Position numbers and translations under genes: made by a program
Shown here: positions 2,684 through 6,710 of the stretch, in pieces
Numbering within the stretch: position 1 is the first letter of the stretch
Layout: every line of letters begins with the position of its first letter
Notes under the pieces: model-generated
Databases searched by the model: none
Told to the model about the DNA's origin: nothing
The model's input: the letters and a program-made list of their open reading frames with translations, nothing else
Assembly (NCBI RefSeq): GCF_000312045.1
Contig: NZ_HE978634.1
Location: 1,027,281-1,091,280, forward strand
Direction of reading: 5' to 3'
Source of the DNA: Noviherbaspirillum massiliense JC206
GTDB lineage: Bacteria > Pseudomonadota > Gammaproteobacteria > Burkholderiales > Burkholderiaceae_D
Length of the DNA: 64,000 nucleotides

Positions 2684-4648
2684 CTATGCAGCCCGCCGGC
2701 CGCGCCGCTTGCGCAGAGCCATGTTCTGCGCCTGCAGAATGGCGTCCACCCGCTCGGAGGCCTCGCGTGCCAGCTCCTGTGCCAGTTCGACGCTGGGAAA
2801 ATATTCCGGGCAGCGATAGCCGAGCCATGCATATGCGGAATACAGGCGGCACGCGTCCTCCACCTCCTGCAGGTTATGGCGGTAGGTTTCTTTCGGATCA
2901 CGATGCAGGGTGCAGACCTTTCGCTTAGCCAGGGCATGCGCCCAGTCCTGCCAGGCCATGTGCAGCGCGGGCACCTTGGAAGAAATCGGCACTAGCGAGA
3001 GCGTGAATTTGTCCGCTATCGAAAGCGGCAGAGTGTCCAGCCAGAGCGCGCGGTCGGACTGCTCTTCGGTAATGCGCGGGAAGAAGAAGCCATCCGGGAC
3101 GTCGATGTTGTGCACGAATCGCTTGAACAGTTTGCTCAGGGATTGTTCTCCCGTTACTGCCGCAATCCGATGCAGTTGTTCCAGGGTTGGCGCGACCGAA
3201 AATCCGGAAGGCGGCACCGGCGGGATTTTTTCCTTCAGTAGCGAGCGCATGATGTAATGGGTTTCTTCGTCAAAGCCGGCAACGAAGCCTTCCTCATGCA
3301 CGCCGAAGCGGCCGGCGCGACCGGCGATCTGTTTTGCAAGCGCGGCCGGTATCTCTTCCTCTTCGTAACCGTTGTACTTGACGCTGGTGGTCATCACGAC
3401 CCGCTCGATCGGCAGGTTCAAGCCCATTGCGATCGCATCGGTGCCAACCACGATGTCAGCCGCCCCCTCGCGAAAGCGCGCCGCCTGCGCACGCCGCACC
3501 TCCGGCGACAGGTTGCCGTACACCGTCGCCACCGAGAATCCGCTCTCCGTGATCATGTCGCGCCACATGAGCACCTCGCGGCGCGAGAAGGCAATGACCG
3601 CATCACCGCGGCGCAGGTTGCGGAGCTTGCGTACCGGTGCCGGCTCCATGGACAGCGGCCCCTTGCGTTTCATGACATGCACTTCGATCGGGCATTCCAG
3701 CCGTTCCGCAAGCGCTTCGACCGCGCGCCGCGCCTCGAGCGCGCCGACCAGGTAGACCACGTTGGCGGGCGCGCCGCACACCGCAGCAGTCCAGGCCGCG
3801 CCACGATCGCGGTCCCCCAGCATCTGGATTTCATCGATGACTGCGACATCGACCCGGGTGCGGGTGTCGAGCATTTCAACTGTACTGGCGACATGCGTTG
3901 CGCCTTCCACGATCCGGCGTTCTTCCCCCGTCACGAGGCTGACCTTGATTTCCCGGCCGCCCGGTCTGGCATTCTGCAGGCGCTCATAGTTTTCCAGCGC
4001 CAGCAGGCGCAGCGGCGCAAGATAGATGCCGGTTTTCGCCTTTGCCAGCGCTTCCATTGCCTGATGCGTCTTGCCGGAATTGGTCGGTCCCAGCAGGGCA
4101 ATGAAGCGGCGTGGCAGGCGATAGGCCATTTCGAAGGAGGCCGGATATTCTGCCAGGTTGATGCTTTCCCTCGTGAGCGCGGCATGCCGTTCTTCCTGCT
4201 GCCGTTCGATTGCATGCGTGAGGCGTTGTTCGATGCGTTCGAATACGTACTCAGCCGGCTCCGAAGATTCCGGGGCCGACAGCGCCAGCAGAAACATCAT
4301 GGGATCGAGCCCGGCATCTTCTGCCCGCGCACAGATGTCTGCCGCGAATGCGGTCACCATCCGATGCAGCTCCTCCTTCGCGTCGGCGCTGGCGCGCTGG
4401 GCCACGAGCTGTAGCTGTTCCTCCGCCCCCATCTTGCGCCACTTGCTGGGTTTGGCCAGGACGCCCTCGCGGGGGACGAGCTCATATGACAGCTGCAAGC
4501 CATTGACCTCGGCCATGCCGGAGAAGCGCAGCAGGACCCGGCCTTCCAGCTTGGCCAGCTCTGCGCCGAGGTCTTTAGCAAGCGCCTCCGGTGTCAAGGG
4601 CTCAGCGGTATCGGGAATGTCGCCGGGTGGAGGAGGAGACACTGTCAT
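2684..4648 (-). CDS. SUV3-like ATP-dependent RNA helicase (DExH/DEIQ-type)
   Basis: A 654-aa superfamily 2 helicase resembling mitochondrial SUV3/SUPV3L1. Seen in order are Walker A GPTNSGKT (about 187-194), a STVEMLD motif (about 255-261), Walker B as DEIQ (about 272-275), motif V VVGTDAIAMGLNLP, motif VI QIAGRAGRFG, and a C-terminal region with SUV3-like character. Residues 1-180 are an extra N-terminal region (Pro-rich start, then helical) that I cannot name. In mitochondria SUV3 unwinds RNA for PNPase; a similar RNA-decay role here is inference. The gene stands alone, about 110 bp from hyi. The start lacks an obvious ribosome-binding site. The 207 bp upstream (4649-4855) hold no other gene. 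Confidence 0.85.
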   Translation of the reverse strand: MTVSPPPPGDIPDTAEPLTPEALAKDLGAELAKLEGRVLLRFSGMAEVNGLQLSYELVPREGVLAKPSKWRKMGAEEQLQLVAQRASADAKEELHRMVTAFAADICARAEDAGLDPMMFLLALSAPESSEPAEYVFERIEQRLTHAIERQQEERHAALTRESINLAEYPASFEMAYRLPRRFIALLGPTNSGKTHQAMEALAKAKTGIYLAPLRLLALENYERLQNARPGGREIKVSLVTGEERRIVEGATHVASTVEMLDTRTRVDVAVIDEIQMLGDRDRGAAWTAAVCGAPANVVYLVGALEARRAVEALAERLECPIEVHVMKRKGPLSMEPAPVRKLRNLRRGDAVIAFSRREVLMWRDMITESGFSVATVYGNLSPEVRRAQAARFREGAADIVVGTDAIAMGLNLPIERVVMTTSVKYNGYEEEEIPAALAKQIAGRAGRFGVHEEGFVAGFDEETHYIMRSLLKEKIPPVPPSGFSVAPTLEQLHRIAAVTGEQSLSKLFKRFVHNIDVPDGFFFPRITEEQSDRALWLDTLPLSIADKFTLSLVPISSKVPALHMAWQDWAHALAKRKVCTLHRDPKETYRHNLQEVEDACRLYSAYAWLGYRCPEYFPSVELAQELAREASERVDAILQAQNMALRKRRGRRAA

Positions 4649-4855
4649 GCGGATGGATAAGATCGGGAAACACGGATTGGGACTGCATTTGTCGCAGCCA
4701 GTTCATCCAGCCGGGACGCTGCCCGAATGCGCTTTTCAATCGATTGACTCGGCCAGGCACGATTGCCTGGCAGCCATGTCATCACGCTTGTTTTCGGTCC
4801 TGCGAGTTACCCGGAATTTCCCGCCGCTCATTTCGGTGCGGTGGAGGGATAGTTT

Positions 4856-5083
4856 TCAGTATCTGGCCTTGGACAGAATGACCAGCCAGCGCCTGAACAG
4901 CAGGATCTCCAGATGGCCGGGCTGGAGTCCGGCGCTGCATTCGATGACCGGGTTGACCCAGTAATACCGTTTGCGGAAGTCGCGGCAGATGAAGATTTCC
5001 CGGTTGCCGAGCCGGATGGCAAAGGAATCCGGAGCGTATTGCAAGCCGAACTGGCTGTCGAAGGAATTATGAATGTGTGCCAT
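4856..5083 (-). CDS. Small protein of unknown function, predicted SOS-regulated
   Basis: A 75-aa basic, aromatic-rich protein (MAHIHNSFDSQFGLQYAPDS..., CRDFRKRYYWVNP, LLFRRWLVILSKARY). I recognise no domain. The ATG at 5083 has a good ribosome-binding site (AAGGGAGA). Its promoter region holds a near-consensus LexA box 53 bp upstream, so DNA-damage induction is predicted. It is divergent from the HAD-like gene at 5287, which has its own LexA box. The function is unknown; a DNA-repair or stress role is inferred only from the regulation. Confidence 0.65.
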   Translation of the reverse strand: MAHIHNSFDSQFGLQYAPDSFAIRLGNREIFICRDFRKRYYWVNPVIECSAGLQPGHLEILLFRRWLVILSKARY

Positions 5084-5135
5084 GGTTTTTATTCTCCCTT
5101 TCTTAAAAATTCATCGGGATTTACTTTAGCACAAC

Positions 5136-5155
5136 TACTGTATAAAAAAACAGTA
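5136..5155 (-). promoter_or_regulatory. LexA (SOS) box upstream of the 75-aa gene
   Basis: TACTGTATAAAAAAACAGTA has the CTGT-N8-ACAG form used by LexA in gamma- and betaproteobacteria, with the flanking TA/TA also conserved. On the minus strand a TTGAAA (5166-5161) and TACAGT (5142-5137) with an 18-bp spacer could form a promoter, so LexA would occupy spacer and -10. Confidence 0.85.
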
Positions 5156-5196
5156 AAAATTTTCAACTCGTGGCAGAAATGGCACCAAACTCAAGG

Positions 5197-5225
5197 TTGA
5201 CTACTGTATATGAATACAGTAATTT
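5197..5225 (+). promoter_or_regulatory. Sigma70 promoter with embedded LexA box, upstream of the HAD-like gene
   Basis: A TTGACT -35 (5197-5202) and TAATTT -10 (5220-5225) are separated by 17 bp. The spacer is almost entirely a second LexA box, TACTGTATATGAATACAGTA (5202-5221), again CTGT-N8-ACAG. Occupancy by LexA would block RNA polymerase directly. The box lies 66 bp before the ATG at 5287. Confidence 0.88.
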
Positions 5226-5286
5226 GTCCAGCATTATTTACTGTACGGTTTCATGGCCCAGCCACCGGGACCTGCGAACAAGACAT

Positions 5287-5742
5287 ATGCGTGTCATTTT
5301 TCTGGAATTCGACGGCGTGCTCCATCCGGCCAGCGCTGCATCGCGATTTGTTCCGGCCCGGCCGCTCAAGCGTGCGGTGCAGCAGGCCTGGCTGTTTCGC
5401 TGGGCCTGGATACTCGATGAACTGCTGGAAGCCCATGCGGATGTCGGCATCGTCGTCCATTCGAACTGGCGCATGCTGGCTGCGGACGAGGAGTTGCAAA
5501 GCTTTCTGGGTCCGCTCGGCCGCCGTTTCCTTGGCAGCACGCCGCGCGGGTCGAAATGGGAGGGTGTTTCGCATGTCGTGCAGCACAATCAATTGCGCCA
5601 TTACCGGATCCTCGATCACGCGCCCCAGGCGTTTCCCGCTGGATTGCCGGAACTTATCGCCTGCGATCCGGAAATGGGATTGCGGGCTTTCGGAGTAAGG
5701 CAGCAACTGCAAAGCTGGTTGGATATGTGCCAGCATGCATAG
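5287..5742 (+). CDS. HAD-like domain protein, predicted SOS-regulated, with altered motif I
   Basis: A 151-aa protein of the HAD-domain type seen in small predicted phosphatases and Swiss-Army-Knife RNA-repair proteins. Motif I reads FLEFDGVLHP (residues 5-14): the usual nucleophilic Asp is Glu7, while Asp9 is kept. A motif II-like Ser is present in VVHSNWRM, and ACDPEMGL may supply later acidic residues. Catalysis by the normal aspartyl-phosphate route is therefore doubtful. The ATG at 5287 is the only start giving a family-like N-terminus. It is controlled by the promoter/LexA box at 5197-5225 and is divergent from the 75-aa gene. Confidence 0.8.
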   Translation: MRVIFLEFDGVLHPASAASRFVPARPLKRAVQQAWLFRWAWILDELLEAHADVGIVVHSNWRMLAADEELQSFLGPLGRRFLGSTPRGSKWEGVSHVVQHNQLRHYRILDHAPQAFPAGLPELIACDPEMGLRAFGVRQQLQSWLDMCQHA

Positions 5743-5839
5743 GAGATCTTGCGTGGTGAATTTCCATGACGGCTTTGCATTTGTCGGTGGCGATGCCTAC
5801 CATGATCTGACAATGCCGATGACAGAGGGCTATGAAGCC

Positions 5840-6370
5840 ATGAGCATGAAAAGCGCAGTCCGGGATTTTTTATCGGGGATGGGAGTGGACAGCCGGGGAC
5901 GCAGGCTGGACACCATACTTGCCTGGTCCGACGATGCGCTCGAACTGCGTCATGACTTCATCCAATGGCTCTTTCCACTGGAACAGGCGAGCCGCTTCAA
6001 CCCGGGCGCGCCGGTGCTGGCTCCCGCAGATTTCGCCGAACTTGGCAGGGATGAGGGCGTTGTTGCCGGGCTGCGGGCAGCGTTCCGGCGCATGCTGGCT
6101 TTCTATGGTCTCACCTTGCGCGGACCGGAAGTCGTGAAGGCGGAGAATTGGGCTGTACGCAGCGCAAACTGGGCATGGTCGCCAACCCACAACGACTTGC
6201 GCATCACGCGGATATTGCATTCGCTGGCCTTGTTCGGGCTCCATTCGGAGGCGGCGGCCTTGCTGCGCTTTGTCGAAACCTTGTTCAGCGAAACATCCCT
6301 GCAGCAAGGCCGGGCAGAGGCATTGAGGTATTGGCGCGATGCCCTGAAGCCCGAGGCTTTCAGTCAATAA
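5840..6370 (+). CDS. Opioid growth factor receptor (OGFr) conserved-region protein
   Basis: A 176-aa protein matching the OGFr N-terminal conserved region, named after a vertebrate receptor but found in scattered bacteria. Diagnostic segments are LDTILAWSDDALELRHDFIQ, WLFPLEQASRFNPGAPVL and, later, SPTHNDLRITRILHSLALFG. No signal peptide or membrane segment is seen. The start at 5840 follows an AGAGGG ribosome-binding site at about 9 nt. An in-frame upstream extension to 5735 is probably untranslated. The biochemical role in bacteria is unknown. It lies 97 bp after the HAD-like gene with no terminator between, so co-transcription, and SOS control, is possible. Confidence 0.8.
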   Translation: MSMKSAVRDFLSGMGVDSRGRRLDTILAWSDDALELRHDFIQWLFPLEQASRFNPGAPVLAPADFAELGRDEGVVAGLRAAFRRMLAFYGLTLRGPEVVKAENWAVRSANWAWSPTHNDLRITRILHSLALFGLHSEAAALLRFVETLFSETSLQQGRAEALRYWRDALKPEAFSQ

Positions 6371-6389
6371 AAGCAATCCTTTACATCGA

Positions 6390-6710
6390 CTACATTGTCC
6401 GCACGAGTGCAATCCCGGCAGCGACCACTGCTACCACCGCTGCGGCCAGCGAAATCATTTTCTGCCGCCTGAGTTCCTGTTCGAGCTGGCCGAACCGGGC
6501 ATCGATCTTTTGCGCGATTTCGGCAATCGCCGCGCCCTGTTTCGTCGCAACCTCCTGCAACTCGAGCACATCCTTGTTAAGAATTTCCAGGACTTGCTGT
6601 TCGCTGGAAACTTTCAGGTCCTTGTCCTTGCGCGACTTGAAGACACCCCTGACCAGATCGATCAAATGTGGCGTCAGCAGGGATACGGTTTCTGGCGTGA
6701 TCACTGGCAT
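6390..6710 (-). CDS. Small coiled-coil protein with C-terminal membrane anchor
   Basis: A 106-aa protein. Residues 1-30 are amphipathic (TPETVSLLTPHLIDLVRGVF), followed by a coiled-coil-like heptad region (about 36-85) and one transmembrane helix near the C-terminus (MISLAAAVVAVVAAGIALV). This topology places the bulk in the cytoplasm with a tail anchor. AAGGAAA lies about 7 nt before the ATG. It is convergent with the OGFr gene. I do not recognise the family. Confidence 0.65.
   Translation of the reverse strand: MPVITPETVSLLTPHLIDLVRGVFKSRKDKDLKVSSEQQVLEILNKDVLELQEVATKQGAAIAEIAQKIDARFGQLEQELRRQKMISLAAAVVAVVAAGIALVRTM

Follow-up and report, generated by a model that had tools for sequence, protein, structure and literature searches.

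DNA damage lifts SOS repression through the RecA-promoted self-cleavage of LexA. The known small division inhibitors under SOS control are mostly membrane proteins, and SidA is one of the lineage-specific examples. SosA and YneA are two further lineage-specific SOS division inhibitors described in the literature, and an abstract terms such a protein a "small, membrane bound inhibitor". For the alpha- and beta-Proteobacteria, the accessible text of one comparative study (PMC3323433) names a LexA core of lexA, recA, dinB and/or polB, uvrA and imuA-imuB-dnaE2, and describes regulation of splB by LexA in both classes. The same text lists two hypothetical proteins, HypA and HypB, as predicted to be LexA-controlled in beta-Proteobacteria; by its account hypA has no homologue outside the multi-chromosome beta-Proteobacteria, and hypB is exclusive to Burkholderia. 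The study treats Burkholderia, Ralstonia, Cupriavidus and Variovorax.

The window, by which is meant the whole 64-kb stretch of DNA that was analysed, carries a pair of LexA-type boxes between divergent genes. The open reading frames lie as the original prediction had claimed: a 75-amino-acid protein, here called p75, is encoded at 4856-5083 on the minus strand, and the plus strand encodes a 151-amino-acid HAD_SAK_2-family protein (P0001; 5287-5742) followed by a protein with an OGFr_N domain (P0002; 5735-6370). Judged from the sequence and its conservation, the region from 5084 to 5286 very probably comprises two independent LexA-controlled units that stand back to back. The p75 and HAD genes had been called genes not known as SOS genes, and this description holds within the open-access literature searched: no SOS role was found for either, and neither p75 nor any SOS-controlled HAD_SAK protein was the subject of a paper found there. 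Both fall outside the LexA core as named in the accessible text of PMC3323433, and the carriers of p75 are genera of the Oxalobacteraceae rather than the four genera treated there. The distribution stated for hypA and hypB does not fit p75, which was found only in its own family. The lack of a literature record and this mismatch in distribution lead us to class p75 and HAD as predicted new members of the known LexA regulon, and p75 could even represent an SOS effector of a new kind.

Both boxes are real and lie at 5136-5155 (box 1) and 5202-5221 (box 2), where they had been placed. The bare core, CTGT-N8-ACAG, occurs exactly twice in the window (5138-5153 and 5204-5219) against an expectation of 0.57 from shuffled sequence, but two occurrences were reached in 9 of 100 shuffles, so that the core by itself is weak evidence. 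A stricter pattern with TA flanks and an AT-rich core, the E. coli-type LexA consensus TACTGTATATATATACAGTA, gave two matches in the window with at most three mismatches and none in 100 shuffles, which puts the agreement far beyond chance. Across the whole genome the bare core is not enriched, with 30 sites compared to 31 for the reversed pattern. It is therefore the genes beside the sites, not the core, that convince. The 16-base core of box 1, CTGTATAAAAAAACAG, agrees letter for letter with the core of the box that this genome has at recA. Nine sites with an AT-rich centre were chosen by eye outside the window and their gene families assigned by Pfam and NCBIfam; six of them lie at lexA, recA, imuA, a PA0069-type radical-SAM gene and two integrase genes. 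The window shares its operator with lexA, recA, imuA and the PA0069-type gene of this genome, and so with the beta-proteobacterial LexA regulon. That the boxes are chance occurrences, or the site of a repressor other than LexA, is barely credible: the missing genome-wide enrichment of the core (30 versus 31) is what could be said for it, whereas the identity with the recA box, the retention of boxes before orthologues and the presence of a CTGATT variant also at recA in three of six Undibacterium genomes, described below, all speak against it.

On contig C2 of this genome, the box at 476938 lies 13 bp before the gene of a PA0069-family radical-SAM protein (L023:1262-2425). This gene may be the splB of PMC3323433, and a box at this position fits the SOS control of splB described for beta-Proteobacteria in the accessible text. 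An integron integrase identified by NCBIfam (L016:963-1997, contig C1) has a LexA-type box at 982, at or near the start of the open reading frame, and a second integrase with a phage-integrase Pfam match (L022:1954-2721, contig C2) has one at 272638, likewise at or near its start. The remaining three of the nine AT-rich sites lie near short or unclear open reading frames on C1 (L017, L018 and L021, at 634752, 1137998 and 2769948), two of which gave no match in a Pfam scan; these could be further SOS genes. Three other core sites that were inspected in the genome have no recognised gene beside them.

An exact box lies within 250 bp upstream of 86 of 95 p75 copies from sampled family genomes, whereas the reversed-pattern control was found before none; when up to two mismatches to the 20-mer are allowed as well, the counts are 92 of 95 and 1 of 95. 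The original prediction had staked itself on boxes being conserved at orthologous loci, and at p75 they are. Background windows contained an exact box in 8 of 1568 cases and the control pattern in 2 of 1568. In a second set, the best 80 of 186 named relatives, 65 have an exact box and none the control. The p75 sequences are related, with 73 distinct 110-bp upstream regions among these 80 loci, so the box counts are not independent. Box conservation at imuA served as a yardstick: counted from 250 bp upstream to 30 bp inside the gene, nearly the same span as for p75, 29 of the 30 best-scoring imuA loci carry an exact box and none the control. The p75 operator is therefore conserved about as consistently as that of imuA, and control of p75 by LexA, as predicted from these sequences, is strongly supported.

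Nine of the 95 copies lack an exact box within 250 bp, and three of these have none even at two mismatches: L050, where an exact box stands at -327; L313, which has an internal TAG; and L328, a distant second copy. L313 lies in a 1.7-Mb genome (G102:C35:3316-3516), and its interrupted p75 without a LexA box looks as if gene and operator were decaying together. Among the 15 non-exact loci of the best 80, 13 have CTGA-N8-ACAG, a variant found mainly in Undibacterium and in metagenome-assembled genomes (MAGs), while L136 has other single mismatches and L187 has nothing. All six genomes of the genus Undibacterium that were compared (L204-L225, L256-L261) have the CTGA-type box before p75, and the LexA box at p75 in this genus tends to the asymmetric form CTGATT-N6-ACAG. 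The recA gene of the same six genomes has CTGATT in three and the ordinary CTGT in three; the variant is thus not peculiar to p75, yet it has not replaced the ordinary recA box throughout. The flanked pattern did not exceed its reversed control in every one of these six genomes.

The p75 promoters also share an element downstream of the box. In 85 of 92 p75 promoters the box is followed, no more than 22 nt on, by the extended -10 motif TGnTAnnnT, compared to 4.5 expected from letter shuffles, and in 70 of the 85 the motif lies at exactly 6 nt; the other 3 of the 95 promoters were excluded since they have no CTG[TA]-N8-ACAG box or no room after it. The window belongs to the 70, with the extended -10 TGCTAAAGT at 5123-5131 on the minus strand, and box 1 lies in the -35 region. 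The conserved extended -10 behind the box suggests an extended -10 promoter whose -35 region would be covered by bound LexA. A promoter scan had proposed TTGAAA/TACAGT instead (two sites listed versus 1.1 expected), but this pair was not adopted, since it is the extended -10 behind the box that is conserved. Two exact boxes are present in 31 of the 95 promoters, and 25 of the 31 spacings are 19 bp. The pair in the window, 66 bp apart, is among the 31, but its second box belongs to HAD.

The p75 gene is coding. In comparison with eight relatives (592 codons), differences per site at codon positions 1, 2 and 3 are 0.31, 0.11 and 0.51, with third positions the most variable, a start codon and a purine-rich stretch like a Shine-Dalgarno sequence recur across the loci inspected, and 24 columns are invariant among 20 aligned members. 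In the window, the ribosome-binding site read from the sequence is AGGGAG at 5094-5099 on the minus strand. Orthologues are present in 91 of 145 sampled family genomes and in 23 of 44 genera, in 95 copies, as four genomes have a second one. These second, more distant copies (G014, G054, G096 and G112) all belong to genus g15, and three of the four have an exact box. In samples from the order and the class, p75 had no significant match outside the family. All nine matches in a draw of 300 genomes from the order fall within the same family, and a draw of 274 genomes from the class gave only chance-level matches besides the genome of the window itself. A class-wide profile search with E values up to 1 found a best other match at 0.005, with many matches short or broken by stops, and these were judged to be chance. 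Among the best 80 of 186 relatives, for which record titles were taken, the genus names are Janthinobacterium, Duganella, Massilia, Rugamonas, Pseudoduganella, Undibacterium, Herbaspirillum, Noviherbaspirillum and Herminiimonas, all of which we take to be Oxalobacteraceae; the rest of the 80 are isolates or MAGs labelled at family or broader level, two of them as "Burkholderiaceae bacterium".

Searches against described families and structures gave nothing that would assign p75 a function. NCBIfam, PHROGs and PADLOC contained no match, and Pfam nothing significant; a lone Pfam line, at E 0.14, came from one member among 20. A profile search of PDB returned only two antibody-derived chains at E of about 2. 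The AlphaFold model is all-beta but of low confidence (mean pLDDT 57.5), and a Foldseek search with it gave nothing below E 0.49, a list discarded as meaningless. An origin in phages or plasmids was also considered for p75, which had no match in either, and Rfam contained no RNA element matching positions 4500-6600. The calculated mass is 8.9 kDa and the pI 9.5; a GRAVY of -0.07 indicates a protein that is not hydrophobic overall, and the product is probably cytoplasmic. Our best guess, and the reading favoured from the sequence, is that p75 is a soluble SOS effector, associated either with a damage checkpoint or with the mutasome. The two readings are about equally likely, and each taken singly is possible but on the unlikely side.

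As a checkpoint protein, p75 would be a functional analogue of SulA that is produced only once damage has occurred and halts septation until LexA recovers. It resembles SulA, SosA, YneA and SidA in being small, lineage-specific and, by prediction, SOS-controlled. The small size of p75, the tight predicted LexA control, often with two boxes 19 bp apart, and the precedent of SosA and YneA as lineage-specific inhibitors are consistent with this reading. So is the apparent absence of a true SulA from the family. The SulA model matched in 17 of 141 family genomes, but all eight of the matches that were checked are ImuA homologues, one of them also by NCBIfam. An anti-correlation between SulA and p75 had been considered and was dropped for this reason. 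Seventeen genomes keep p75 although no imuA was detected in them, which points in the same direction. On the other side, p75 differs from SulA in having no Pfam or NCBIfam match to it, none of the 20 aligned members matched the SulA profile (PF03846) at E values up to 1, there is no structural match, and the known small inhibitors are mostly membrane proteins, whereas p75 is not hydrophobic overall.

The alternative, of comparable weight, would make p75 an accessory of RecA or of the translesion synthesis that ImuA-ImuB-DnaE2 carries out after damage. The neighbourhood of p75 provides part of the evidence. In 10 loci inspected, neighbours vary between genera, with Undibacterium and some MAGs as exceptions. 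Of the best 80 of 186 loci, 12 have imuA next to p75 in divergent orientation; these comprise 8 of the 15 loci with Undibacterium in their title, and 4 MAGs. In 11 of the 12, imuA lies within about 400 bp of p75; in L121 it is about 1.7 kb away. NCBIfam identified ImuA in the genome of the window and in two of these imuA-p75 loci. Both genes are present in 70 of 141 genomes, p75 only in 17, imuA only in 32 and neither in 22, a co-occurrence that is weak (Fisher p 0.011, uncorrected for kinship); G141-G144, which all bear p75, do not belong to this draw of 141 genomes and were left out, hence 87 p75-bearing genomes of 141. The basic character of p75 also fits a role of this kind. However, the adjacency is restricted to one genus and MAGs and is absent from 68 of the best 80 loci, and imuA is present in 32 of the 54 genomes without p75. 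No imuA was detected in 17 of the 87 genomes that bear p75, which counts against an obligate role in the mutasome.

In the window, p75 adjoins a different gene, for a Suv3-type DEXQ-box RNA helicase with PF22527 and SUV3 C-terminal domains (2684-4648). This helicase was not beside p75 in the 10 p75 neighbourhoods examined.

On the other side of the boxes, P0001 matches HAD_SAK_2 (PF18143) at E 5.4e-17 over residues 3-133, nearly its full length, with 62.9 bits compared to a curated cut-off of 27.5. One of the boxes had been predicted to lie within a promoter spacer, and box 2 fits the 17-nt gap between TTGACT (-35; 5197-5202, plus strand) and TAATTT (-10; 5220-5225, plus strand; a weak match to consensus), both read from the sequence. 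The pair is missing from the output of the mechanical promoter scan, which gave two other sites versus 1.1 expected. Four of the five other boxed HAD genes (L060 and L062-L064, not L061) have TTGACA at the corresponding place before the box, and in these four TATTTT or TACCTT takes the place of the -10. A family search found 52 matching places in 44 genomes, of which 30 were taken for the box count and 22 lie outside it. Six of the 30 have a box, and these are all six with at least 60% identity, the window's own included; every box is within 107 bp of the gene. Box 2 stands 83 bp before HAD in the window, where box 1, at 149 bp, belongs to p75, and the boxes of the five other close homologues stand at 51-107 bp. 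The other 24, more distant homologues have no box within 400 bp. From this distribution, HAD is a separate and rarer predicted SOS gene whose box is conserved only in a close clade.

Members of this clade differ from their relatives at a catalytic position. The nucleophile of catalytic HAD phosphatases is the first aspartate of the DxD motif. In the window protein the first aspartate of motif I is replaced by glutamate (FLEFDGVLHP). Fifteen chosen sequences (the ten closest, one second copy and four distant ones) were aligned: all six predicted LexA-controlled members, the window's included, have glutamate at the nucleophile position, whereas the nine unboxed relatives have aspartate in seven, glutamate in one and glycine in one. 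Three distant HAD proteins from the order have aspartate, and none of the three is boxed. No phage record matched HAD, though the virus-protein family phrog_1818 did (E 1.4e-13); the plasmid relatives of HAD (69 records) are all below 60% identity.

P0002 matches OGFr_N (PF04664) at E 1.1e-24, with 87.6 bits against a curated cut-off of 22. Its open reading frame overlaps that of HAD and it has no LexA box of its own; the likely start is a GTG at 5753 or 5756, after AGGAG at 5741-5745 and 10-13 nt past the HAD stop. The overlap and a start behind AGGAG make read-through from HAD into OGFr likely, and the two genes are probably co-transcribed, so that OGFr looks like a passenger on transcripts that start at the HAD promoter. 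Among 141 family genomes a single one, that of the window, has an OGFr_N domain, so the protein of the window is isolated within its family and its link to SOS is at most local read-through. Six distant relatives are on plasmids of other groups, three of them annotated as opioid growth factor receptor-related, and P0002 matches phrog_38436 (E 1.1e-9). The phrog_1818 match of HAD and the phrog_38436 match of OGFr, both to families without an assigned function, make a mobile past possible, and OGFr may be a recent arrival. The open-access literature searched contained no link between OGFr_N proteins and LexA.

The arrangement in the window had been taken for a single DNA-damage module of p75, HAD and OGFr, and this part of the original prediction does not stand. 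The three genes are contiguous here and the HAD and OGFr frames overlap, as a functional module would have it. In the five other genomes with a boxed HAD, however, p75 is on another contig (four genomes) or 2.3 Mb away (G015), each gene having its own box, and about 7 kb around HAD contains neither p75 nor OGFr. The unlinked orthologues, together with the presence of OGFr in one family genome of 141, make a single module very unlikely, and it is rejected in favour of the two back-to-back units. In these two units, LexA bound to box 1 would cover the -35 region upstream of the extended -10 and keep p75 off, and LexA bound to box 2 would occupy the stretch between the -35 and the -10 of HAD and keep HAD off, probably with OGFr behind it. 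Self-cleavage of LexA upon DNA damage would release both promoters, and p75, HAD and OGFr would be induced. Once made, p75 may act on the division or the replication machinery, as a substitute for SulA or as an accessory of ImuA-ImuB-DnaE2. HAD would be another SOS gene, less widespread than p75, which has become the neighbour of p75 in this genome.

Finally, the separate boxes of p75 and HAD illustrate clearly how two predicted SOS genes were brought adjacent while each kept its own operator. The p75 operator is conserved like that of imuA and the gene is present in 91 of 145 genomes, yet no Pfam, NCBIfam or PHROGs model describes the family. Such a distribution suggests that p75 is a standard but unnamed part of the damage response of this family, whose members live in soil and water, and p75 is a strong candidate for a missing SOS effector of these bacteria. 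A tentative reading, to which we give slightly less than even weight, is that p75 founds a new family. It would be a LexA-locked SOS effector, widespread in the Oxalobacteraceae and without a homologue detected elsewhere, and it would take on damage checkpoint or mutasome control, tasks performed by unrelated proteins in other bacteria, while the adjoining SOS-controlled HAD, with glutamate for aspartate, would perhaps be a binder and not a phosphatase.
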